52,115 nt of DNA from a virus. Shown here piece by piece: positions 5,293 to 52,115 of the stretch; the stretch's first letter is position 1; each line of letters opens with the position of its first letter. The notes under the pieces are model-generated. The model ran no database searches, was not told where the DNA came from, and saw only the letters and a list, made by a program, of their open reading frames with translations. The position numbers and the translations under genes are program-made. The DNA is taken from positions 1 to 52,115 of IMG/VR virus record IMGVR_UViG_3300028024_000185; one strand, 5' to 3'.

Positions 5293-5610
5293 CTAGGGTT
5301 TTAGGCGCGTTGGCCGGTCATCGGTGCCGATGGCACGAAGTTCAAATGAGATCAGGAAGCAGATGCAGCAGCCGGCATGCCATAGGTGAGAAAATCCCGT
5401 CTCTGGGTCACAGGGCTCACCCTCCCACCATGAGGTGAGGTGCCGCATCAGAGCCGCGAAGCATCGGCTCCATGCCATGCCGTTTTCCCAGTTCCTGGGG
5501 GCATACTTCTGTGCGCCAAATGCCAGTACCTTGATGATGGCCCGGAAAGCATCAAAGGGGGCTAGATGCCACGGATCCTTGCCGCCATCGTCTTTTCTGC
5601 CTTCGCTCAC
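5293..5610 (-). CDS. dATP/dGTP diphosphohydrolase-like domain protein
   Basis: A 105-residue protein starting at GTG 5610, preceded by AAGGAG at 6 bases. The GTG overlaps the previous stop in a GTGA. The core (KYAPRNWENGMAWSRCFAALMRHL ... FSHLWHAGCCICFL) matches the phage family annotated as the dATP/dGTP diphosphohydrolase N-terminal domain, related to MazG-type all-alpha enzymes; acidic and His residues that could bind metal are present. It would hydrolyse dNTPs to dNMPs. No PurZ-like gene is visible, so base-Z synthesis is not supported. The neighbour is a deoxyribosyltransferase-like gene. Confidence 0.75.
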   Translation of the reverse strand: MSEGRKDDGGKDPWHLAPFDAFRAIIKVLAFGAQKYAPRNWENGMAWSRCFAALMRHLTSWWEGEPCDPETGFSHLWHAGCCICFLISFELRAIGTDDRPTRLKP

Positions 5611-6032
5611 TTGAGGCTCCTTGTCGTCACTGGCCCGCCGATATTCGGGACCCACTTGATTGCAGCTGCCGCCGCTTGCTTCGCTGTGGCGCCCATCTCC
5701 ATCGCTCCCATGGCACAGTCCTGGCCGCTGCCGATTGCCCAGAACGGCACTGGTGGCGTCTCGAAACATAGCCGCTGCTCCCAGACCTGGATTTCTCCGG
5801 CCGGCGTCACGATCAGAGCGTCGAAATCGAACGTCGATAGAAACCGACGGTCGTCTTCGTCTTCCGAGAAGAACAGTTCAATGAATGTATCAAGCGGCGG
5901 GCAGACGTTGCCGGACAAGCCGATCAGATGGCCCCGGTGTTTCGCGATCTTCCGGCACCGCGCTTTTGTCGAGCCAAGCTGCATCAGGCTGTCTGCCGCC
6001 ATGATGCCATCTCGATAGGCGATGACGGTCAT
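5607..6032 (-). CDS. Ntn-hydrolase, proteasome/HslV-like phage protein
   Basis: A 141-residue protein beginning MTVIAYRDGIMAADS. The Thr after the initiator Met would be the N-terminal nucleophile once Met is removed, as in HslV and proteasome beta subunits. The KIAKHRGHLIGLSGN segment that follows fits the family. The 36 codons upstream of ATG 6032 are excluded because they would bury this Thr. The ATG overlaps the stop of the phosphoesterase gene by one base. Phages carry such genes often, with no settled function; a peptidase role in virion or host-protein processing is possible. Confidence 0.75.
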   Translation of the reverse strand: MTVIAYRDGIMAADSLMQLGSTKARCRKIAKHRGHLIGLSGNVCPPLDTFIELFFSEDEDDRRFLSTFDFDALIVTPAGEIQVWEQRLCFETPPVPFWAIGSGQDCAMGAMEMGATAKQAAAAAIKWVPNIGGPVTTRSLK

Positions 6033-43478: not shown

Positions 43479-44050
43479 CACTTCTTCTCCGCCATGACTG
43501 CTTCGAGATCTGAGAGCATCGCCGCACCGGCGCCGAACACGCGCAGGATCTCGTCGTGCAGCTCGCCGGCCTCACGAGGCGTCAGCTTGCCGTCGGCCAT
43601 CGCAGCCGCATATCGGCTGAACACGGTGGCGACGCGCTCGCCGAACTGGGCCATGTCGGTTGCCAGTGGGGCGTCGTCGTCGAATTCCAGGGGGATGAGG
43701 GCGCAGCCTTGGGCGGCCGCCAGGAAAGCTGTTACGAGCGGCTGGCCGCAGTCGCGTTCAAGAACCCTGATCTGCGAGGGCTTCAGCTCCTTGTCCGGCT
43801 CCTGCTCATCGGTGCAGGCGAATATTCTGGTGGGGCTACTGCCGGTCAGATCGGCCGATCTCTTGTGACCCCCACAGGCAGACACGAGCGCGGCCATCGA
43901 CGCCTTCAGTGTCCCGCTTGTCCGCGGCTTATAGAAATGACCAGCGCGCTCGGGGCGCCGGGTTTTGCGCCGGCCGGATTCCTCTCCGCAACTATCACCT
44001 GAAATGCGATCTGTCTTTTCGACCACTTTGAGAGGATGAGATGTCGTCAT
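43478..44050 (-). CDS. Regulatory protein with CII/YdaS-like central region
   Basis: A 190-residue protein. The central part reads SGTLKASMAALVSACGGHKRSADLTGSSPTRIFACTDEQEPDKELKPSQIRVLERDCGQPLVTAFLAAAQG, the pattern of CGG-x-x-x-x-A helix-turn-helix regulators such as YdaS-type proteins. The C-terminal third (TDMAQFGERVATVFSRYAAAMADGKLTPREAGELHDEI) is helical. ATG 44050 overlaps the upstream stop in ATGA; the longer frame upstream is rejected. A CII-like or anti-repressor role would fit its early position. Confidence 0.6.
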   Translation of the reverse strand: MTTSHPLKVVEKTDRISGDSCGEESGRRKTRRPERAGHFYKPRTSGTLKASMAALVSACGGHKRSADLTGSSPTRIFACTDEQEPDKELKPSQIRVLERDCGQPLVTAFLAAAQGCALIPLEFDDDAPLATDMAQFGERVATVFSRYAAAMADGKLTPREAGELHDEILRVFGAGAAMLSDLEAVMAEKK

Positions 44051-44265
44051 TGCCGCCCCGCATGAATGAAGCCAAGCCAGAGAGCGAAGCTCCCGGCGCC
44101 GATCACGAAGAAGGCCGGCGCAAAGGCGCTCAGCCCTGCCAGCGACGCCAGGCCCGCCCAGATCGCGGCGTTCCCGCCGCAGACCGACAGCTGAAGCAAT
44201 CGAGCATCGAGGCCGGTGTTGTCGTTGGCCGGCGGTGCTGAAGGGATGAATACCGGGCTGCTCAT
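44047..44265 (-). CDS. Small membrane protein, unknown
   Basis: A 72-residue protein with a Pro-rich start (SSPVFIPSAPPANDN) and a hydrophobic region from about 30 to 65 that could form two helices. It is coupled to the downstream regulator gene by ATGA. Function unknown. Confidence 0.55.
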   Translation of the reverse strand: MSSPVFIPSAPPANDNTGLDARLLQLSVCGGNAAIWAGLASLAGLSAFAPAFFVIGAGSFALWLGFIHAGRQ

Positions 44266-44327
44266 TGTGCGATCCTCTCCCCGCGCGATACGCTCGAACG
44301 GTCACGGTCAGGCTGGAGAGAAGGGAT

Positions 44328-44552
44328 ATGGCCAAAGGCATCTTCGACGATGGAATCCTCGAATTCACCTGTGCGAACTGCGGCAAGGAACATCCGAAGA
44401 CCATCGGTTGGATCAAGGCGAATGACCATTTCACCTGTGAATGTGGAGCCCGGACTGACATCGAGCGCGACCAGGCGCTTGAGGCCTTCGGGCGTGTCGA
44501 TCAGGCCATGGAACGCCTCATGGACGCGTTCGGGAAGTTCGGGAAGAAGTGA
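44328..44552 (+). CDS. Zinc-ribbon protein
   Basis: A 74-residue plus-strand protein starting MAKGIFDDGILEFTCANCGKEHPKTIGWIKANDHFTCECGA. CANC and CECG form a two-Cys-pair zinc site; a helical, acidic tail follows. GGAGAGAAGGGA precedes the ATG. It is a common small family in alphaproteobacteria with no known role. A minus-strand ORF covers the same region (44262-44621), but the motif and ribosome-binding site favour this strand. Confidence 0.7.
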   Translation: MAKGIFDDGILEFTCANCGKEHPKTIGWIKANDHFTCECGARTDIERDQALEAFGRVDQAMERLMDAFGKFGKK

Positions 44553-44683
44553 CAGCAGCTCGGCCAGGGCGCCATCCGCGCCGGCCGTGTCAGTCGCCAA
44601 TCTGCATATCCGCCTGCTCATTGCCGACCTCCAGCCGCGGGCGATAGCATGGTCTCCACGGGGACCAACGGGGGGATCATCAG

Positions 44684-45016
44684 ATGGAACGCGTTTACAT
44701 CATTCACATCGAAATGCCGGGCGCGAGCCACGAAAGGCTGGTCGAGACGGGGAAAATTCTGGTTCGCGTCCTGACCGACTTCGGCAAATACCTTTCCCTG
44801 TACAGGACCGAGGATCGGGACCTCATAGGATATGCGCTGAAGACCACCAAGAACGCGCGGCAGCTGCGCGCGGCATTGGAACATGGCGCTGGCAGCAAGG
44901 GCGGATCCGCGCTGCGCAACGGCGACAGGCTTTATATCGTCGAGACCGGCCCCGATTACGACTGGATCGGATTCGGTGCGATGGATGCGTTTCTCAGACA
45001 CCGCGCCACCTCTTAA
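44684..45016 (+). CDS. Small phage protein, unknown
   Basis: A 110-residue plus-strand protein starting MERVYIIHIEMPGASHERLVETGKILVRVLTDFG. Third codon positions are GC-rich and the helix-strand pattern looks real (GDRLYIVETGPDYDWIGFGAMDAFLRH). It overlaps the end of the minus-strand gene at 44994-45173 by 23 bases, tail to tail. Function unknown. Confidence 0.6.
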   Translation: MERVYIIHIEMPGASHERLVETGKILVRVLTDFGKYLSLYRTEDRDLIGYALKTTKNARQLRAALEHGAGSKGGSALRNGDRLYIVETGPDYDWIGFGAMDAFLRHRATS

Positions 45017-45173
45017 ATTCCAGATGGCTTTCGCCGAAGATCGCAGTGTCGAGCTTGTCGAACAGGACGGCCTGCCAACGCCGATGCAGCCGATGCGGCA
45101 GCCAGCCTGATTCGACGAGATACCACTTCACCCGGTCGATGAACGGCGGCTCGTATTTCGGCGTCTCAGACAT
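44994..45173 (-). CDS. Small protein with GWLPHxLHxxW motif
   Basis: A 59-residue protein with VKWYLVESGWLPHRLHRRWQ. The same motif, STGWLPHWLHDKW, is in the next upstream gene, so the two are probably a tandem duplicate. Its start overlaps that gene's end by 8 bases. Function unknown. Confidence 0.55.
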   Translation of the reverse strand: MSETPKYEPPFIDRVKWYLVESGWLPHRLHRRWQAVLFDKLDTAIFGESHLEFKRWRGV

Positions 45174-45384
45174 GCCGCCCTCCAGCGCGAACCTGGTTGA
45201 TCGATGCGGTGCCGCGGAACAGGTCTCCCCGGGCAATCTCGGCGCGGACGTGATCGCGGATCAGTGCATCCAGCGACATCCGGGGCCGTCCGGGGCGCGC
45301 CCACTTGTCGTGCAGCCAGTGAGGCAGCCAACCGGTGGAGAGGAGCCAGGATTTCGCGGCCTGTTTGGTCATGATGCATTTCAT
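45166..45384 (-). CDS. Small protein with GWLPHxLHxxW motif, upstream copy
   Basis: A 72-residue protein with AKSWLLSTGWLPHWLHDKWARPGRP, similar to the 44994-45173 protein. AGGTGA precedes ATG 45384; an in-frame ATG lies four codons downstream. The start overlaps a possible plus-strand gene by 14 bases. Confidence 0.55.
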   Translation of the reverse strand: MKCIMTKQAAKSWLLSTGWLPHWLHDKWARPGRPRMSLDALIRDHVRAEIARGDLFRGTASINQVRAGGRHV

Positions 45385-45535
45385 CGCGTCACCTGCAGAT
45401 CACGACGCGGCGAAGGTGTCAGAGACGCACTATCAAATGAGCGCCGATCAAGCAGTTGAGTTTGCTCAGGCGCTATTGCGAATAGCGGCCGAATCGAAGA
45501 AACGGGAAAGCGCCGAACCAAAGGGGCATGCTTAG
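45371..45535 (+). CDS. Possible small protein
   Basis: A 54-residue reading (MMHFIASPADHDAAKVSETHYQMSADQAVEFAQALLRIAAESKK and on). The second half looks like a real amphipathic helix. A shorter start at 45437 is equally possible. The ribosome-binding site is weak and the start overlaps the minus-strand gene, so I keep this as tentative. Confidence 0.35.
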   Translation: MMHFIASPADHDAAKVSETHYQMSADQAVEFAQALLRIAAESKKRESAEPKGHA

Positions 45536-45593
45536 ATGACAGTGCCTGTGGTGGATGGGTCATGCTGCCCACCATGCGAAAGGAGAATGAGAA

Positions 45594-45845
45594 GTGACTC
45601 GCAAGTTTCGTGAGCGCGCCGAAGCGCTGGCGGTGCAGCTAATTCTCACGCAGATTCTTGCCCATGCATTTCGGGCTGACACCAAATTCGCCAGAGCTTT
45701 CAGCCGAGGCATTGAGCACTCGATTGAAAATTTCCAGTTCACTAACGGATGGTCAGATACGGATGAGATGAAGGGACGAGAATATATGCGAGTCGCCGCT
45801 GACGAGATTATCGGCCCTGCGATGGCTGCAATGAGGGGGCGCTGA
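45594..45845 (+). CDS. Small phage protein, unknown
   Basis: An 83-residue protein starting at GTG 45594 (MTRKFRERAEALAVQLILTQILAHAFRADTKFARAF), with AAGGAG 8 bases before it. It is helical and basic at the front. It converges on the Cro-position gene, ending 4 bases from it. Function unknown. Confidence 0.55.
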   Translation: MTRKFRERAEALAVQLILTQILAHAFRADTKFARAFSRGIEHSIENFQFTNGWSDTDEMKGREYMRVAADEIIGPAMAAMRGR

Positions 45846-45849
45846 GCAA

Positions 45850-46065
45850 TCATGCGGCCCGACCCGTCGACCGATTTGTCTGATCTAGCGAGGCGATAAA
45901 ATCCATGACGCGCTTAAACGTCTTGTATCTGCAGCTGCGTCCGCGCCTCAACTCGAACACGAAAGTTGGGTCTCCGGTCGCCGCGCGGCCAAACCCAGTG
46001 GGGCTCAGGCGGTGGTCGGCGAGACACTTTTCGATCTCGGTGAGAAATTGAGCTTCGTCCAACAT
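45850..46065 (-). CDS. Cro-position small DNA-binding regulator
   Basis: A 71-residue protein (MLDEAQFLTEIEKCLADHRLSPTGFGRAATGDPTFVFELRRGRSCRYKTFKRVMDFIA), a compact HTH often seen opposite CI-type repressors in alphaproteobacterial prophages. It is the first leftward gene, reading from the operator region. ATG 46065 lies close to the predicted transcription start, so the mRNA may have almost no leader; an upstream ATG at 46074 would sit in the promoter. Confidence 0.7.
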   Translation of the reverse strand: MLDEAQFLTEIEKCLADHRLSPTGFGRAATGDPTFVFELRRGRSCRYKTFKRVMDFIASLDQTNRSTGRAA

Positions 46066-46072
46066 GATCAGC

Positions 46073-46101
46073 ATATTGGTATGCTAAAGCCTACAAGTCA
46101 A
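46073..46101 (-). promoter_or_regulatory. Leftward early promoter candidate
   Basis: On the minus strand, TTGACT (46101-46096) is followed after 17 bases by CAATAT (46078-46073). The -10 match is weak. The operator at 46080-46093 lies between the two boxes and another abuts the -35 box, so bound repressor would block RNA polymerase. Confidence 0.6.
46080..46093. promoter_or_regulatory. Repressor operator O1 (TATGC-TAAA-GCCTA)
   Basis: One of five matches to the dyad TAKGC-N4-GCMTA in the window. It lies inside the spacer of the leftward promoter, 60 bases before the repressor start. Confidence 0.65.
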
Positions 46102-46115
46102 GAGGCTAAAGCATA
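46102..46115. promoter_or_regulatory. Repressor operator O2 (GAGGC-TAAA-GCATA)
   Basis: It differs from the dyad consensus by one base and abuts the -35 box of the leftward promoter. Its centre is 22 bases from the O1 centre, about two helical turns. Confidence 0.6.
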
Positions 46116-46139
46116 TTCGATATGTAGACCCAAGATGTG

Positions 46140-46153
46140 TAGGCTCAAGCCTA
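46140..46153. promoter_or_regulatory. Repressor operator O3 (TAGGC-TCAA-GCCTA)
   Basis: The outer arms form a perfect inverted repeat. It runs up to the first base of the repressor ATG, so binding here would reduce repressor synthesis. Confidence 0.6.
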
Positions 46154-46884
46154 TGAGCAGAAAACGAATCCCCATGGACCATTTTCGGAAAGCGATCTCC
46201 GACCGCATCGCGGAAAAGGATCTGAAGCTGAATGCAATTTCGAAAGAATTAGGTCGAAATCCCACCTATATGCATCAATTCCTTAACTATCAGAACCCCA
46301 TAAAGCTCGACGGAGATGACCGGGATAGGTTGGCCGAGATGCTCGAGCTGGCGCCGGAAACGCTCCGCGAGATGGAACGGGGAGAAATTGCGGTGATGGA
46401 TCGGCTGAGGGGTGAGATTTCTGCCATCACGGATGTACGGCGCAGCGGCAAATTCGATCTGAGCGAACAACAGCCGCGCCGCAGCCAGCGACTGCCGGAA
46501 ATCGACGTGCGAGCCGGCATGGGGCCCGGGCAGGTCCCCGTTGATATTGAGCGTCCTGTTGACTTCTGGGAAGTGCCACGCGGGTTTTTCGGGCGGTCAG
46601 GCGAATTGCTGGTCGTCCAGGTTAAGGGCGAAAGCATGGAGCCCGTCCTTAAAACCGGCGACCGAGTGATCATCGACCGGTCAGATACCGTCCCCTCACC
46701 TGGCGGTATATTTGGGATATTCGATGGACACGGCGTCATCGTCAAATATGTCGAGACGATAGCGCAATCGAATCCTCTACAAATACGAATTTTTTCTGGA
46801 AATCCGCCGTTTACACCACAGGATATGGTGGTGCAGGACGATACGATAGTTGGTCGTGTCTTAGGTTACGTCAGGCGATTTTAA
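46153..46884 (+). CDS. LexA/S24-type phage repressor (CI-like)
   Basis: A 243-residue protein. An HTH region lies at about 20-46 (KDLKLNAISKELGRNPTYMHQFL). The S24 peptidase half follows, with the Ala-Gly cleavage pair at 121-122 (DVRAGMG), the Ser nucleophile in KGESM (Ser 161) and the Lys in VIVKYVE (Lys 198). It should hold lysogeny and cleave itself after RecA activation on DNA damage. The start could be ATG 46153 or 46174; both lack a strong ribosome-binding site. Operators lie at and before its start. Confidence 0.88.
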   Translation: MSRKRIPMDHFRKAISDRIAEKDLKLNAISKELGRNPTYMHQFLNYQNPIKLDGDDRDRLAEMLELAPETLREMERGEIAVMDRLRGEISAITDVRRSGKFDLSEQQPRRSQRLPEIDVRAGMGPGQVPVDIERPVDFWEVPRGFFGRSGELLVVQVKGESMEPVLKTGDRVIIDRSDTVPSPGGIFGIFDGHGVIVKYVETIAQSNPLQIRIFSGNPPFTPQDMVVQDDTIVGRVLGYVRRF

Positions 46885-46970
46885 GCCGAAAACTGCGAAG
46901 TTGCGGATTTCTGGAATTCAGACTTATTGTAGCGTATAATCCTAACGGTTGGCTTCGTTGGGGGATCGTC

Positions 46971-47528
46971 ATGTTGCGAATTAGCGTAGCAATCGCTGCG
47001 GTGCTTTTGCTTGGCGGATGTGTACCTACTGTGATCAGCCTGCCTCCCTATACGCCCGTTGGGACGGAGGAGTTTTCGGGTCACGTTGATGTTCATGAAT
47101 TCAAATACTTCCCTAAAAAGGGAGTTGCGCCGGATGTGATTCACAATACGGCGGCTGGTGAACTCAAACTGACCGAAACCGTGGGGTCTTATTACACCAA
47201 CGCTGTTCGTCGGGAGTTTCGCCAATCTGGATTGTCAGTAAAGCCTACCGCCGGCTGCTCCCTCGATGGTGAAATAAATGACCTAACCATCGACGACTTG
47301 GGATTTTCGGCGACCTATATAACCGATGTCCGATATATCCTTTGGGATGGCGATAAGAAGACGCTGCTGGACAACGTCTACAACGTAAAATTCAACACGA
47401 CGAAATATGTCACTGCCGAAGTGATATTCGCAAATATTAACAAGATGATATCGGCCAATATCGCAAAGCTGATGGCCGATGAAGCGTTTGGCCAGGCTAT
47501 TTCACAGAAATGTGGAGTACCGTCGTGA
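46971..47528 (+). CDS. Lipoprotein, lysogenic conversion candidate
   Basis: A 185-residue protein with a lipoprotein signal (LLLGGC, Cys about 17) and a mature part of mixed alpha/beta type. It resembles lipoproteins with a small domain that measures envelope components; two further Cys (GCSLDG, QKCGVPS) may pair. GGGGGATCGTC precedes the ATG. GC is lower than in the structural genes. The gene sits after the repressor and pairs with the next lipoprotein. Confidence 0.65.
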   Translation: MLRISVAIAAVLLLGGCVPTVISLPPYTPVGTEEFSGHVDVHEFKYFPKKGVAPDVIHNTAAGELKLTETVGSYYTNAVRREFRQSGLSVKPTAGCSLDGEINDLTIDDLGFSATYITDVRYILWDGDKKTLLDNVYNVKFNTTKYVTAEVIFANINKMISANIAKLMADEAFGQAISQKCGVPS

Positions 47529-47998
47529 GGCGGCAATTCACCGGCCCAGTTCTGGCGCTGTGTTTGCTCGGTTGTGCACCATCTAATACCGCGTCGACCT
47601 ATACCGAGGGCGAGATCGGACGAGCGGCCACAGTAATGAGGGGAACGGTCGTCGCCATCCGCCAAGTGACTATCCAAGGTGATTCTTCGGGCGCCGGCAT
47701 GGTGGGAGGGGCAGTCGCCGGTGGTGCAGCCGGAACAATGGTCAGCAGCAATCCCGCACTGGCCGTCGCTGGCGCGGCCGGGGGCGCCGTCATTGGCGGC
47801 GTCGCCGGTGCAATAACAGAAGATGCGCTGCGCCGCGGAGGCGCCATGGAGATGGTCATCCAGCAGGAAAACGGACAGACCATTGCGATCGTCCAGACCA
47901 ACGAAGAGGGCCTGAAAGCCGGCGATCACGTGATGGTTCTTAGGTCGGATAAGGTTCGCATTATTCGAGATCAAACAACAGGCAACAGCCATACCTAA
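47525..47998 (+). CDS. SlyB/17-kDa-type glycine-zipper lipoprotein
   Basis: A 157-residue protein starting at GTG 47525, which overlaps the previous stop in GTGA; GGAG lies 8 bases before. The signal ends LCLLGC. The middle has a Gly/Ala-rich zipper (GAGMVGGAVAGGAAGTMVSSNPALAVAGAAGGAVIGGVAG) typical of the SlyB/17-kDa surface-antigen family, and the start of the mature part (GEIGRAATVMRGTVVAIR) fits as well. It may reinforce the outer membrane or block entry of other phages. Confidence 0.75.
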   Translation: MRRQFTGPVLALCLLGCAPSNTASTYTEGEIGRAATVMRGTVVAIRQVTIQGDSSGAGMVGGAVAGGAAGTMVSSNPALAVAGAAGGAVIGGVAGAITEDALRRGGAMEMVIQQENGQTIAIVQTNEEGLKAGDHVMVLRSDKVRIIRDQTTGNSHT

Positions 47999-48049
47999 AA
48001 ATGAAAGGCCGCCGATGCCTTCCGGTATCGCTTATGACGCAGTTGCAAA

Positions 48050-48640
48050 ATGCCAAAGTTAGGAATTTGGTATGTGCTGCCATTGTTGCTATTGGCGAGC
48101 GCTGCTGGTGCTGGCGGCGGCAGCTATTTTCAGAAGAAGCATTTAGCATCGATAGTTGGTCGGGTAGATCCTCCGACAGAGTTCGATCTCGCTGCACTTT
48201 CTGAAAACGGGCCAAGGATCCTAAAGGCGATGCAGAGTGCTGGGCTGCAATTGCAGCCGGCTCTTTCCAAAGCGAAATATCGTGGTTTGCAGATTTGGCT
48301 TTCCAGACCGGCGCTCGAAAACTTCTGGATCTCTATTCAGTTGTGCGGCGAGGTCAGCATTCCAGATGGCCCCACCGAAGAGTTTGAGCCTTTCGCCATG
48401 ATATATGTGGTGCCTTTTGGCGATGTCACTCCAGGGTTTCATGCGAATATTGCCGGGTGGGAATCTGACATTAAGGGTCCGGATTATTATATGAGGAAAG
48501 GCAGCACTTGGACGGCCCAAGAGGTGGCCCAGAATCTGGATCGGGACCGGAGGTCGCTGCGCGATATTTGCGCCCACGATGGCGTTTATTCACGCCGAGC
48601 TATCGAGGTGCACATGCTCAAGAGAATCGATCAGAACTGA
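48050..48640 (+). CDS. Anchored exported protein, unknown
   Basis: A 196-residue protein with one N-terminal hydrophobic segment (about 6-23, GIWYVLPLLLLASAAGAGGG) without a lipobox. A periplasmic part follows with a strand-rich centre (FWISIQLCGEVSIPD, FAMIYVVPFGDV). It is the last gene of the repressor-side group, after the two lipoproteins, and has similar lower GC. The start lacks a strong ribosome-binding site. Confidence 0.55.
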   Translation: MPKLGIWYVLPLLLLASAAGAGGGSYFQKKHLASIVGRVDPPTEFDLAALSENGPRILKAMQSAGLQLQPALSKAKYRGLQIWLSRPALENFWISIQLCGEVSIPDGPTEEFEPFAMIYVVPFGDVTPGFHANIAGWESDIKGPDYYMRKGSTWTAQEVAQNLDRDRRSLRDICAHDGVYSRRAIEVHMLKRIDQN

Positions 48641-48702
48641 TCTTGGGTCAGGGTGGCGGTGTGATTAATGGTCTCTTTGGGCAACGCAGGTATGACTATT
48701 GA

Positions 48703-48749
48703 AATTGGCGCGGGCACACTGACACACTACCAGCATATCCGCGCCAATT
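48703..48749. terminator. Long inverted repeat between convergent genes
   Basis: An 11-bp perfect inverted repeat (AATTGGCGCGG / CCGCGCCAATT) with a 25-base loop. It lies between the plus-strand gene ending at 48640 and the minus-strand antitoxin ending at 48768. It may end transcription from both sides; a recombination or protein-binding site is also possible. Confidence 0.45.
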
Positions 48750-48767
48750 AAATCCTGACTGTTATCC

Positions 48768-49049
48768 TCAAGCCGCCTCGACTTTGAGCCGCACCCCCAG
48801 GGACTTGATAACCTTTCTGACGGTTTCATATTGAGGATGAGAGCCCGGCGCGAAGGCTTTATATAGACTCTCTCGACCCAATCCACTTTCCTCAGCAACT
48901 TTTGTCATTCCCTTTGCCTTGGCGATATCGGCAATAGCGGAAAGGAAGAGCTCGGGGTCATCCTCTTCCAGAACAGCATTGAGATACTCGGCGATCATCT
49001 CTTCACTGTCGAGATAATCGGCCGCATCGAACTTCGTGTATTTAGGCAT
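48768..49049 (-). CDS. HigA-like antitoxin (addiction module antidote)
   Basis: A 93-residue protein. The HTH region is DPELFLSAIADIAKAKGMTKVAEESGLGRESLYKAFA, followed by YETVRKVIKSLGVRLKVE, as in the antidote family found with HigB-type toxins. The gene starts 17 bases after the toxin stop. It should bind and neutralise the toxin and repress the operon. Confidence 0.85.
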   Translation of the reverse strand: MPKYTKFDAADYLDSEEMIAEYLNAVLEEDDPELFLSAIADIAKAKGMTKVAEESGLGRESLYKAFAPGSHPQYETVRKVIKSLGVRLKVEAA

Positions 49050-49066
49050 AGCACTGCCCCCTTCCT

Positions 49067-49357
49067 CTAGAGCAATCTCGCCAGCGCCTTTGCTTTCTCT
49101 ATGTCGCCCTCTTGCGTTGATTTATCGCCACCCAACAGCAGCAGGAAAACCAAAGCTCCTCGCTGGACGAAATACACACGATAGCCAGGACCGAAATGAA
49201 TCCTCATCTCGGACACACCCTCGCCGACCGGCGCACAGTCACCGAAGTTTCCGGCTTCCGCGCGCTTGATCCTGACAATGATCTTGGCCTTGGCCCTGAC
49301 ATCTCTGAGGCTCTTCAGCCAATCGTCGAAGGTGTCTGATTTGACTATCGTGTACAT
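49067..49357 (-). CDS. RelE/HigB-like toxin
   Basis: A 96-residue protein starting MYTIVKSDTFDDWLKSLRDVRAKAKIIVRIKRAEAGNFGDCAPVGEGVSEMRIHFGPGYRVYFVQRGALVFLLLLGGDKSTQ, the full length and motifs of the family paired with HigA-like antidotes. It probably cuts mRNA on ribosomes. The in-frame extension upstream of ATG 49357 is not used. Toxin-first order fits HigBA. Confidence 0.85.
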   Translation of the reverse strand: MYTIVKSDTFDDWLKSLRDVRAKAKIIVRIKRAEAGNFGDCAPVGEGVSEMRIHFGPGYRVYFVQRGALVFLLLLGGDKSTQEGDIEKAKALARLL

Positions 49358-49365
49358 GACGATGA

Positions 49366-49383
49366 TGTATTCACTCGGATACA
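49366..49383. promoter_or_regulatory. Inverted repeat upstream of the toxin gene
   Basis: TGTAT-N8-ATACA lies 9 bases before the toxin ATG on the minus strand. It is a candidate operator for antitoxin autoregulation. Confidence 0.45.
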
Positions 49384-49534
49384 CTTTACAAGAACCAAAT
49401 CGGCATAGCTGAAAAAATAAAAGTGATCCACTGCGAGGAAATTAACCAATTCTTCGAACTTTTGCCTTGGGCCGCCGGCTCAAACCCAATAAGCATCGCT
49501 CCCTCGGCGCTTCCGCAGAAGAATTTTCGGCAAA

Positions 49535-49548
49535 TATGCTTTTGCCTA
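49535..49548. promoter_or_regulatory. Repressor operator O4 (TATGC-TTTT-GCCTA)
   Basis: It matches the same dyad as at the repressor gene and abuts the -35 box of the rightward promoter. Confidence 0.6.
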
Positions 49549-49577
49549 TTGCAAGCATATAGGCTTTCGCATATATC
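49549..49577 (+). promoter_or_regulatory. Rightward promoter candidate
   Basis: TTGCAA (49549-49554), a 17-base spacer and TATATC (49572-49577). O4 abuts its -35 box and O5 fills most of the spacer, so bound repressor would exclude RNA polymerase. It would drive the genes from 49799. Confidence 0.65.
49560..49573. promoter_or_regulatory. Repressor operator O5 (TAGGC-TTTC-GCATA)
   Basis: It matches the consensus exactly and lies between the -35 and -10 boxes of the rightward promoter. Its centre is 25 bases from that of O4. Confidence 0.6.
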
Positions 49578-49743
49578 TATCCCATCAGCTGATCGCTGAT
49601 CTCGGCCCCAGGCGTTTCCCCTGACGTTCTGCCGGCCCTGATTACCTCCTGATGGCTGGCGCACTGTTCCCCTGCGGTCCCCCTGCCATCTCGAGCACCT
49701 CCCAGAACGGTCGACCGCGCCTCCCCGCCGGTCGACGTGACTA

Positions 49744-49778
49744 GCCCGGTGCGCTGTCATCTTCTCGGCGCACCGGGC
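49744..49778 (+). promoter_or_regulatory. Leader hairpin before the rightward operon
   Basis: An 11-bp perfect stem (GCCCGGTGCGC / GCGCACCGGGC) with a 13-base loop, ending 20 bases before the ATG at 49799. CGCCCTTTG follows, too few T for a strong terminator. It may be an attenuator, an RNA stability element or a protein-binding site. Confidence 0.55.
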
Positions 49779-49798
49779 GCCCTTTGAGGATCGATCGC

Positions 49799-50002
49799 AT
49801 GGCCTATGTGGCAGTGTTCGCAGATCATCGTATCACCGAAGTAAAAGGTCGCGCCGCTCATGGCAAGGTGCCGGCTGCAGTCAAGCTTATGGACGACAAG
49901 GGCGATTTCATTTGCACCCTCACTGTCCAGGAAGCCGAGTTCCTTCTTGCCCAGCTGCCGGCGGCGATCGCCGCAGCCAAGGCTGTGGAGCAGGCAGCGT
50001 GA
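49799..50002 (+). CDS. Small phage protein, unknown
   Basis: A 67-residue protein starting MAYVAVFADHRITEVKGRAAHGKVPAAVKLMDDKG and ending with an Ala-rich helix (EAEFLLAQLPAAIAAAKAVEQAA). TGAGGA is 8 bases before the ATG. It is the first gene after the operator-controlled promoter. Function unknown. Confidence 0.6.
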   Translation: MAYVAVFADHRITEVKGRAAHGKVPAAVKLMDDKGDFICTLTVQEAEFLLAQLPAAIAAAKAVEQAA

Positions 50003-50319
50003 TCTCGATGAGCAACACTGCGCCGGTCGATCAGTCGGCAACCGGCGCTTCGCCTCAGGCTGATGATGCCACGAGGCCAGGTGTCATCAGTTCCGATATT
50101 CCCATCACACCGCAGCGGAAATGCGCATGGAGCAAGACAACGCGGCTTATCGCGGCGCTGCTGCCAGGACAGTCCGTCCTGATCGGGTTCGATCATCGGG
50201 CCGGCCGTCAGCATCTGCAGCATGTCTGCCGCGCTAATAATCGCTGCGCAGATTCCTTCGGCTGGAAATTGACGGCGCGGCAAGAGCCGAACGGCACACG
50301 CGTCTGGAGGATCTCCTGA
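49999..50319 (+). CDS. Small phage protein, unknown
   Basis: A 106-residue protein from GTG 49999 (GTGA overlap with the previous stop, GGAG 8 bases upstream) or 103 residues from ATG 50008. The first third is unstructured. The rest (IAALLPGQSVLIGFDHRAGRQHLQHVCRANNRCADSFGWKLTARQ) looks folded and basic. Function unknown. Confidence 0.55.
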   Translation: MISMSNTAPVDQSATGASPQADDATRPGVISSDIPITPQRKCAWSKTTRLIAALLPGQSVLIGFDHRAGRQHLQHVCRANNRCADSFGWKLTARQEPNGTRVWRIS

Positions 50320-50521
50320 TGTCGATCCTCGAAACCCAGACCTACGCCTATTGGGCCGCGCAACAGGCGCGCCGAAAGCCTGGACTGACCGAGGAGGTCC
50401 GGGGTCAGGTCGTCGAAACTATCAGGCTCGTGGCCAAAAATGCGACTGCGCGAAGCTGCACAATATCGCTGCCGCGGAGATGGCCAAAGTTGATCACCCG
50501 ACCGGCGGCAATGCCGCTTAA
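50319..50521 (+). pseudogene. Small gene with apparent one-base deletion
   Basis: The ATG at 50319 overlaps the previous stop by one base and opens MSILETQTYAYWAAQQARRKPGLTEEVRGQVVETIRLVAK. After this point the current frame turns into an unlikely basic tail. The -1 frame continues as CDCAKLHNIAAAEMAKVDHPTGGNAA and stops at 50519-50521. Adding one A to the run at about 50437-50441 would restore a protein of about 67 residues. It is a true mutation or a homopolymer error. Confidence 0.6.
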
Positions 50522-50542
50522 CGCTTACTTAGGAGATAGATG

Positions 50543-50872
50543 ATGAAGGCAGATTTCCAAAGACAGGCACGTCAGGGCGACGTGCTGATGGTGCTGGTCG
50601 ATGACCTTCCGAAAACGGCCAAGACGGTGAAGCAGGAGAACGGCTTGGCGACGCTGGCCTATGGCGAGGCGACCGGCCATCACCACAGCTTCCACGAAAA
50701 GGCCAAGCTGTTCCGCGATGACGGTGCCGGCGGCGCGCTCTATGTCCGCACTTCGGCGGGTGCCGCTCTGACCCACCAGGAGCACTCGACGATCATCACG
50801 CCGGCCGGCGTTATCCGCAAGGTAAGCCAAGTCGAATATCACCCTGCCGAATTGCGTCGGGTGGCAGATTAA
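50543..50872 (+). CDS. His-rich conserved protein (GEATGHHH / THQEH type)
   Basis: A 109-residue protein. QGDVLMVLVDDLP opens a strand-rich region, followed by LAYGEATGHHHSFH and later GAALTHQEHSTIITPAGVIRKVSQVEYHP. The conserved His groups could bind metal. The pattern fits a family I recall next to proteins like the one at 51405; the link is from memory. ATG 50543 is 7 bases after AGGAG; ATG 50540 is just before. Function unknown. Confidence 0.7.
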   Translation: MKADFQRQARQGDVLMVLVDDLPKTAKTVKQENGLATLAYGEATGHHHSFHEKAKLFRDDGAGGALYVRTSAGAALTHQEHSTIITPAGVIRKVSQVEYHPAELRRVAD

Positions 50873-50875
50873 ACA

Positions 50876-51349
50876 ATGCCACGTAACCGCCCTTGCAAGC
50901 CGCTGTCGGAACGATTGCGAGAGAAAACGCAGGAGATCGATAGCGGCTGCTGGGAATGGACCGGCAATATTATGCCAAATGGGTACGGTGTATTGGCGAT
51001 CGGGCGGCGCTCACTTGGCGAGCGGAAAACGGTCTATGCACATCGGGTTAGTTACGAGTTTCACCGAGGTCCAATACCTCATGGTTTGGATCTAGATCAC
51101 CTTTGCCGCAACAGAAGATGCATCAACCCAGATCATCTCGAACCAGTAACTCGGCAAGAGAATGTGCTGCGTGGCGTCGGACCCCGAAAGGCAAGTGAGT
51201 ACTTTGCTCAAATAACCCACTGCAAGCACGGCCATGCTTTCGATGAGATCAATACATCACCACGCAAGGAAGGCGGTCGGAAATGCAGAAAATGCGGGGC
51301 CATTAGGACGGCTAAATATAAGGCAAAAATGAAAATTTCTGCGGATTGA
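50876..51349 (+). CDS. HNH endonuclease, homing-type
   Basis: A 157-residue protein. GCWEWTGNIMPNGYGVLAIG and YAHRVSYEFHRGPIPHGLDLDHLCRNRRCINPDHLEPVTRQENVLRG form the HNH core, as in many phage homing endonucleases. A C-terminal CKHGH and CRKCG pair adds a second zinc site. It starts 4 bases after the His-rich gene and separates it from the repeat protein, so it may be a recent insert. Confidence 0.85.
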   Translation: MPRNRPCKPLSERLREKTQEIDSGCWEWTGNIMPNGYGVLAIGRRSLGERKTVYAHRVSYEFHRGPIPHGLDLDHLCRNRRCINPDHLEPVTRQENVLRGVGPRKASEYFAQITHCKHGHAFDEINTSPRKEGGRKCRKCGAIRTAKYKAKMKISAD

Positions 51350-51359
51350 TGCTCTGTCA

Positions 51360-51381
51360 GAGGGCCGGTGCGCCGGCCCTC
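51360..51381. other. Hairpin before the repeat-protein gene
   Basis: A 9-bp stem (GAGGGCCGG / CCGGCCCTC) with loop TGCG, after the HNH gene and 23 bases before the next ATG. No T-run follows, so it is not a clear terminator. Confidence 0.4.
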
Positions 51382-51404
51382 GCATGGATCATCAGGAGGA
51401 TAGA

Positions 51405-52115
51405 ATGGTAATGCGTGTCGACAAACTCACCGGTGAACAGCGCGCCAAAATGGACGCGTGGGCTGATCAGTGGATCGAGGTGGGCTTGCGCCTGGGCGCA
51501 GCCGATCGGCCGAAGTTCGAGGGAGCCGCGAAGCGCTGCTATGAGGCGGCCGGCATTCCCTGGCACGGGAATGTCATCTGGGTTTCCTCGCCGCTCGTGA
51601 TGGCCATCGCTGCGCCCGTAGCAGCCTTTGTCATCGAACTAAATAAGCGGAAGCAGGTCCGTGGCGCGGTCGGTGGCGCGGTCCGTGGCGCGGTCAGTGG
51701 CGCGGTCGATGACGCGGTCGGTGGCGCGGTCCGTGGCGCGGTCGATGACGCGGTCCGTGACGCGGTCCGTGGCGCGGTCGATGACGCGGTCCGTGGCGCG
51801 GTCCGTGGCGCGGTCGATGACGCGGTCCATGGCGCGGTCCGTGACGCGGTCCGTGACGCGGTCCATGGCGCGGTCCATGGCGCGGTCCATGGCGCGGTCG
51901 GTGGCGCGGTCAGTGGCGCGGTCGATGACGCGGTCGATGACGCGGTCCGTGGCGCGGTCAGTGGCGCGGTCGATGACGCGGTCAGTGGCGCGGTCAGTGG
52001 CGCGGTCGATGACGCGGTCAGTGACGCGGTCGGTGGCGCGGTCGATGGCGCGGTCCATGGCGCGGTCCATGGCGCGGTCGGTGGCGCGGTCGGTGGCGCG
52101 GTCCGTGGCGCGGTC
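51405..52115 (+). CDS. Repeat protein with DUF6745-like N-terminus (3' end outside window)
   Basis: The frame opens at ATG 51405 (or 51411) after AGGAGGA and remains open to the window edge (237 codons). The first 85 residues ([33 protein letters not shown] and [20 protein letters not shown]) resemble the N-terminal part of the DUF6745 family, by memory. From residue 86 it is a run of four-residue units [R/G/S/D/H]-[G/D]-A-V, 38 in the window. Ala-Val at every third and fourth place could pack as an elongated helical or solenoid stalk. The usual C-terminal region would lie beyond the edge. Confidence 0.7.
51660..52115. repeat. 12-bp in-frame minisatellite, at least 38 units
   Basis: The unit is VRTGRCGCGGTC, with GCGGTC fixed. 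Variation is confined to the first two codons. The array is exactly 38 units from 51660 to the window edge and continues past it. Each unit codes for x-(G/D)-A-V in the plus-strand protein. Unit length keeps frame when copies are gained or lost. The minus strand is also open (mainly D-R-x-x), but this is a mirror effect. Confidence 0.95.

Follow-up and report, generated by a model that had tools for sequence, protein, structure and literature searches.

The DNA analysed here, hereafter the window, is the complete 52,115-nucleotide stretch of an IMG/VR virus contig that is classed as linear (IMGVR_UViG_3300028024_000185). At its 3' end, an open reading frame extends without a stop from the ATG at position 51405 through the last base. 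The start codon is preceded, at a distance of 5 nt, by AGGAGG (51394–51399, plus strand), which, as read from the sequence, is a likely ribosome-binding site. The first part of the frame encodes an 83-aa N-terminal domain (51405–51653, plus strand), and this is followed by a tandem array of 12-bp units that encodes x-(G/D)-A-V and runs off the window (51660–52115, plus strand). Upstream, on the same strand, are located a gene for a protein of 110 aa that we call the partner (50540–50872; phrog_27831, E 6e-16; no Pfam match), with the motif QGDV...GE.TGH.H...H.EH...EY, and, between the partner and the array gene, a gene for an HNH endonuclease (50876–51349; PF13392, HNH_3, E 3e-16; phrog_826, E 3e-49).

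Unit-by-unit reading resolves the array into 38 exact 12-bp units, and TRF reports a single 12-bp array at 51656–52115, with 38.3 copies and 0% indels, so its existence beyond chance is not in doubt. Nine of the 12 positions never vary, namely 3 (T), 4 (G), 6 (C) and 7–12 (GCGGTC), and variation is confined to positions 1 (C17 G15 A6), 2 (G23 A15) and 5 (G26 A12). Codon 1 accordingly reads R, D, G, H or S, and codon 2 reads G or D; the array contains 8 unit types, the most common being RGAV and DDAV, with 8 copies each. Thus, the initial annotation, which described a constant GCGGTC following two codons that vary among five and two residues, is borne out across all 38 units, as is its statement that a 12-bp unit keeps the frame at any copy number; the frame is open to the last base of the array. 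Other reading frames are open across the array as well, in keeping with a stop-free 12-bp repeat, and the reading frame is settled by the N-terminal domain, which has homologues. An overlapping product in another frame was considered and set aside given that the third-position spelling differs between phages. The array is not a pentapeptide repeat either, its period being four residues and not five both in the TRF output and in the reading of the units.

An array between two conserved domains

The N-terminal domain yielded no family match of its own in scans against Pfam, PHROG and NCBIfam. When used as a query, it retrieved 7 virus contigs with 51–74% identity, the nearest record to the window being 74% identical in this domain, and one metagenome-assembled bacterial contig with 68% identity; each of these homologues runs on into an xxAV array. 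In all 5 complete close relatives, the PF20530 (DUF6745) domain was detected 3' of the array (E 5e-27 to 2e-38), the order being N-terminal domain, array, DUF6745 domain. By extension from these relatives, the DUF6745 domain of the window gene would be expected past the contig end. The window would then carry the beginning of a phage protein of the DUF6745 family in which the array separates two conserved domains, a proposition that forms part of the main reading discussed below.

Scans of viral contigs identified 63 loci with the C-terminal alignment and 45 with the N-terminal one, and the family set, counting the window and the bacterial contig, comprises 90 distinct records. Of these, 75 show an array with 10 or more units, the commonest frame being Ala-Val in 66, Ser-Val in 7 and Gln-Val in 2; Gln-Leu and Ser-Leu arrays occur in sources outside the IMG/VR set. 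Array-less DUF6745 members were also found, namely L072, gp174 of Microcystis phage Ma-LMM01, and proteins from Streptomyces, Nonomuraea, M. fortuitum and Nostoc, which allows the array to be regarded as something added to a pre-existing protein.

Several related loci differ in architecture. A bacterial genome encodes a Gln-Leu array protein (L124, 121–2139) with the partner gene 5' of it, as judged by eye, and is one of 2 genomes out of 299 in its phylum in which DUF6745 was detected. On the Nocardia farcinica plasmid NZ_LN868940.1 (L119, about 570–1932), the module has a Gln-Val array, and the N-terminal domain, array and C-terminal domain lie in different frames; the gene may be broken, wrongly sequenced or in a phase-variable state. 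By eye, leucine-rich-type repeats replace the array and are joined to DUF6745 in L120 (3365–4366) and L125 (358–2070). Directly 3' of its DUF6745 gene, L007 has a coding array of 15-bp units, readable as pentapeptide repeats (5527–5819), and L005 contains, upstream of the DUF6745 gene, a second tandem array of 36-bp units (384–698), with DAV and GAV motifs in its longest open frame.

The window ORF scores 44.4 against a 27-bit Pfam cut-off for Gly-zipper_OmpA (PF13436), with the match inside the array; among the five complete relatives, L003 scores 27.0, L005 and L008 fall below the cut-off, and L006 and L007 are not among the matches. Gly-zipper_OmpA is a hydrophobic glycine-zipper helix of an envelope protein, and most of the window units contain a charged residue or His; we read the match as compositional. 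The PHROG matches of the same ORF are of unrelated kinds, including a connector (6e-5) and weak tail matches, and all fall on the array. NCBIfam holds no family for three partner proteins, the L005 protein or a Streptomyces member, and gave chance-level matches for prophiGD102-1 and the window ORF. PADLOC returned weak matches only: REase_II (0.0006) and Cas2e on the arrays of L005 and the window, and one match on a toxin-type gene of the window. The literature searched mentions STM4015, and no mention of DUF6745 was found in it; a search by title and abstract opening produced no account of the array, which does not prove that none exists.

The partner gene and the gene neighbourhood

An iterative HMM search detected the partner family in 55 of the 61 loci with at least 1.5 kb of upstream sequence, a count that includes both L105 and the near-identical L106. 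In 39 loci, the partner is found on the same strand, upstream by no more than 1.5 kb; in most of the others, it lies shortly 3' of the DUF6745 gene. It also stands beside DUF6745 genes in 5 of 6 other records (Streptomyces, Deinococcus and Nocardia plasmids and two phage records), the Nocardia gene being in two pieces, and is missing from the Nostoc plasmid. In Ma-LMM01, the partner is gp175, which adjoins the array-less gp174. The HNH gene, at one point a candidate for the conserved neighbour, was dropped because the underlying cluster had merged the HNH and partner families, of which the partner is the conserved one. A PDB sequence search gave no match up to E 1 for either the C-terminal domain or the partner. 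Array-less DUF6745 genes of Streptomyces and Deinococcus plasmids (L118, L247 and L120) adjoin genes annotated as members of the STM4011–STM4015 family, among them radical SAM and hydrolase genes; the phage setting is different.

The gene pair sits near DNA-metabolism genes. Recurrent neighbours, in 4 to 9 records each, match exonuclease VIII, a helicase-methyltransferase, Erf, a DnaB-like helicase, RecT and a DNA methyltransferase, where each neighbour cluster is named from one representative. The replication genes of the middle expression class in Ma-LMM01 include gp169, gp173, gp178, gp180 and gp181, which flank gp174 and gp175; these two are not named in the main text of the transcriptome paper (PMC5780444). 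The time of expression of the pair may resemble that of the neighbouring replication genes.

In the window, head or tail families were matched by 6 of the 10 scanned minus-strand ORFs, at 10.4–32.2 kb, whereas the array lies at 51.7 kb, approximately 19 kb from the nearest of these genes. One minus-strand ORF, at 42 kb, has a ParB-like match, and the stretch from this ORF to the array holds a repressor that is S24/CI-like as well as a toxin-type gene accompanied by a regulator. The initial annotation had proposed a rod-like stalk tuned by length; this proposal is supported neither by the distance from the head and tail genes matched nor by the location of the array between two conserved domains in the complete relatives. 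The toxin-type (phrog_3445) and repressor-type (phrog_4268) genes on the minus strand at 48768–49384 are arranged like a toxin-antitoxin pair, and the plus-strand ORF at 298–1239 has a motif in its letters that reads like that of a formyltransferase. A search of Rfam found nothing at gathering score in positions 44000–52115 of the window.

Array length and contig ends

A contig end within 3 residues of the array edge was observed in 48 of the 90 family records, the window included, which shows that short-read virus assemblies tend to break at the array. In 5 records, the two halves of the gene lie at opposite ends of the same record, as expected of circular genomes broken in the array. The end of the window is therefore most simply explained as an assembly break, and 38 units is a lower bound. 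Closed ORFs are available from 37 records, 34 of which have 13 to 81 units (33 have at least 15); the exceptions are L046 and L065, which count 6 and 7 units following an in-frame stop, and L072, which lacks an array. These lengths come from short-read assemblies and may be wrong, and the variation in copy number that had been anticipated from the window is, among the relatives, wide.

Diverse residues in a uniform spelling

The units of an array vary strikingly in the residues at the first two positions and hardly at all in the way in which codons are spelled. Diversity and Fst were calculated for one array of at least 10 units per record, filtered on Val at position 4 only (75 arrays, including the near-duplicates L025 and L105). 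In the 66 Ala-Val arrays (1948 units), the within-array diversity at nucleotide positions 1, 2 and 5 is 0.488, 0.452 and 0.404, with Fst values of 0.13, 0.09 and 0.36, that is, little to moderate variation between arrays. For the third codon positions (3, 6, 9 and 12), the picture is reversed, with a within-array diversity of 0.044–0.050 and Fst of 0.84–0.93. Each array thus possesses a private, nearly fixed spelling, yet draws on much the same residues. Because the spelling of Ala-Val differs across phages, what the arrays have in common is the protein motif, whereas uniformity of the DNA is limited to the individual array. The constancy of GCGGTC, whose Ala-Val had been taken as a sign of an ordered fold, thus holds for the window but is a matter of within-array uniformity.

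To the same effect, in codons 1 and 2 of 73 arrays (2025 units), the mean pN is 0.324 and the mean pS is 0.036, these being uncorrected proportions over unit pairs that, within one array, are not independent. Counted per site in these two codons, units are about nine times less likely to differ synonymously than nonsynonymously. All 73 arrays have pN > pS, although barely so in L054 and L055, and pS is zero in 46, among them the window (pN 0.343). This set excludes L011, L025, L045 and L105 and is limited to units with Val at position 4 and the commonest residue of the array at position 3, so that pN of codons 3 and 4 is zero by construction. When the unit filter was lifted, pN exceeded pS in 69 of 73 TRF arrays, a set of family arrays found by pattern in which some records are counted under more than one locus. 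The 45 "other" TRF arrays include family arrays read in a wrong frame and were not used as a control. Outside IMG/VR, 4 of the 10 records examined have arrays, all four with pN of 0.21–0.30 and pS of 0.00–0.07.

By contrast, in 57 phage collagen-like arrays, pN is 0.544 and pS 0.666, with pN > pS in only 4 of the 57 among the matches listed. These arrays come from 80 listed loci, out of at least 120 stretches in viral contigs, of which 57 gave an array; they are far less homogenised and hence serve as a control for short-unit coding repeats in general rather than for young arrays. Codon preference was tried as the cause of the uniform spelling and rejected, the Val codon of the array being rare in the flanks of several genes, even if common in those of others. 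In L051, GTT is used in 38 of 38 units but in none of the 23 flanking Val codons, and in L044, GTG is used in 27 of 28 units but in none of 20 in the flanks; many other arrays are fixed for a Val codon that prevails in their flanks as well (e.g. 0.76 in L047 and 0.68 in L026).

Comparison of related arrays, with the units matched by order only, points to the same three positions: all 25 base differences between L074 and L077 (in 16 units) fall at positions 1, 2 and 5, as do 22 of the 25 between L014 and L015 and 20 of the 24 between L035 and L087. Two near-identical pairs, with 10,226 aligned bases, show 9 mismatches, 6 of them in the 351 bases that belong to arrays. A third codon position accounts for one of these six, and five lie no more than 58 bases from a contig end, the region in which assemblies are least reliable.

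Probable turnover and order of units

Over the 70 arrays of at least 12 units, words of 4 to 6 units are repeated far more often than in shuffled arrays (z 19 to 27). The window array has no repeated 4-unit word, nor any block recurrence beyond chance. The proneness to expansion by slippage that the window had suggested is supported for the family by multi-unit blocks that recur as tandem duplication would predict, although the array for which it was proposed does not share this recurrence. The order of units is weakly structured, with lag-3 identity at z 3.2, lag 6 at z 2.5 and lags 9 and 12 near zero, and identical neighbours are slightly rarer than in shuffles (324 vs 349, z -1.6). Position 1 is occupied by R (0.278), G (0.270), D (0.262) and H (0.080) in 2038 units, nearly all residues being polar or glycine. 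A search for a coil period in the unit order, charge included, gave weak signs only.

Predicted structure

In the AlphaFold model of the L005 protein (443 residues), the N- and C-terminal domains are confident, and most of the array has a pLDDT of about 30; for the window ORF, the array is for the most part predicted as one long helix (pLDDT 47 to 87, pTM 0.30). The two runs thus differ, and neither is confident for the whole array. In Foldseek searches, the L005 model matched Ma-LMM01 gp174 in BFVD (E 7e-13, TM 0.47/0.54) and no PDB entry at E ≤0.001; a second look with VIA-align gave a best Z of 3.7, which is not meaningful.

Discussion

Unequal exchange and slippage copy synonymous and nonsynonymous differences alike, and hence a uniform spelling combined with diverse residues would seem to require either selection for diversity or a targeted mutator. 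Selection for variety at a contact surface would be expected to leave such a pattern. The explanation that we favour, with a probability of about 0.55, is that the window gene is the first part of a two-domain protein of the DUF6745 family, in whose array tandem turnover homogenises the DNA while selection keeps residues 1 and 2 diverse. In this model, units and blocks would be duplicated and lost in tandem until one spelling is fixed in each lineage, and selection at the protein level would maintain the variety of the two residues.

The origin of this variety could also be sought elsewhere. If identical units tended to aggregate, misfold or pair, varied residues would serve the array itself, as a soluble spacer or helical arm with no outside partner. 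We consider this account unlikely but deserving of serious attention: the near exclusivity of polar residues and glycine at position 1 and the weak structure in the order of units are in its favour, but identical neighbours are only slightly depleted, and the collagen-like arrays do not display the pattern. It is improbable that the array serves as a spacer, either neutral or tuned in length, in which residues 1 and 2 drift and length alone matters. The wide range of lengths among closed ORFs and the existence of members without an array (L072, Ma-LMM01 gp174, and those of Streptomyces and Nostoc) would suit such a spacer, but free drift predicts pN no greater than pS in codons 1 and 2, which is strongly disfavoured by the opposite relationship in all 73 arrays, and the window gene lies outside the head and tail block.

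Positions 1, 2 and 5 would be the ones changed by a targeted mutator, for instance a diversity-generating retroelement that works on the adenines of a template unit, and indeed, in the commonest spelling, the variable positions coincide with those at which the template would carry adenines (AAC GAC), with the third positions fixed. However, the adenine-holding codons CAG, in the Gln-Val and Gln-Leu arrays, and AGC, in some Ser-Val and Ser-Leu arrays, are invariant; RVT_1 was detected neither in the window nor in the 50 records examined out of 88 other virus records, many of which are fragments; and TRF found the array only once in the window. We regard a mutator as very improbable. The frequent coincidence of contig ends with array edges makes array lengths unreliable and could raise the suspicion that the array is a chimera or a collapse produced by the assembler. 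This explanation has a negligible probability in view of the 37 closed ORFs, 33 with at least 15 units, and of the arrays in two phage records deposited as complete and in a plasmid; moreover, synonymous and nonsynonymous sites look alike to an assembler.

If tandem turnover combined with selection on residues 1 and 2 is the correct explanation, the array might be an arm that emerges from the DUF6745 core, with Ala-Val (or Ser-Val, Gln-Val, Gln-Leu or Ser-Leu) as the repeating frame and residues 1 and 2 as an exposed variable surface that meets a changing, co-evolving partner, for example, a host factor. By analogy, one can tentatively envisage a phage recognition arm, a miniature counterpart of the hypervariable repeats of PRDM9 or TALE type, with a fixed two-residue frame and two exchangeable residues, reshuffled in tandem in the course of an arms race with the host and carried by a widespread, unstudied two-gene module; of the functions conceivable we prefer this one, but we consider the scenario possible rather than probable. 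Should the favoured explanation be correct, phages would keep a protein surface variable by means of a minisatellite with units copied in tandem under selection for change in two of the four codons, another route besides retroelements. The pattern can be measured in public data, where it reappears across dozens of differently spelled arrays, and the two-gene module, which is found in phages, plasmids and bacteria, offers a concrete place to look for the host partner.

The closest known relatives of the system are the DUF6745 proteins of Ma-LMM01 (gp174) and Streptomyces, which share the C-terminal domain with the complete relatives of the window gene and have the partner family adjoining; unlike the window gene, these proteins and those of Nonomuraea, M. 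fortuitum and Nostoc have no array. Diversity-generating retroelements likewise limit variety to a few codon positions of the target gene; the DUF6745 arrays differ from them in that no RVT_1 was found in the 51 records examined, some possibly fragments, and in that adenine-holding codons are invariant in several arrays. The collagen-like G-X-Y arrays of phages also consist of short coding units with fixed and variable residues but, in contrast to the DUF6745 arrays, have a high synonymous diversity that, in nearly all of the matches listed, exceeds the nonsynonymous one. Protein repeats in general, as summarised by Persi, Wolf and Koonin (2016, PMC5120217), combine a high dN/dS among the repeats of a protein with homogenisation driven by duplication; in the phage arrays, the homogenisation of third positions is nearly complete and the variety is confined to 2 of the 4 codons. 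A further parallel is mouse Prdm9, described in PMC3890296 as containing a coding minisatellite with a variable copy number, in which the variety among units is mostly nonsynonymous and falls at a few fixed codons. The phage family resembles it in the nonsynonymous variety at fixed codons and in the homogenised units, the third positions of the phage units being private to each array. The PRDM9 units are DNA-binding zinc fingers of 84 bp, whereas those of the phages are 12 bp long, and the Pfam scan found no zinc finger in the window ORF. Although the two are not homologous and bear no sign of relation, the phage array may work like the PRDM9 minisatellite.
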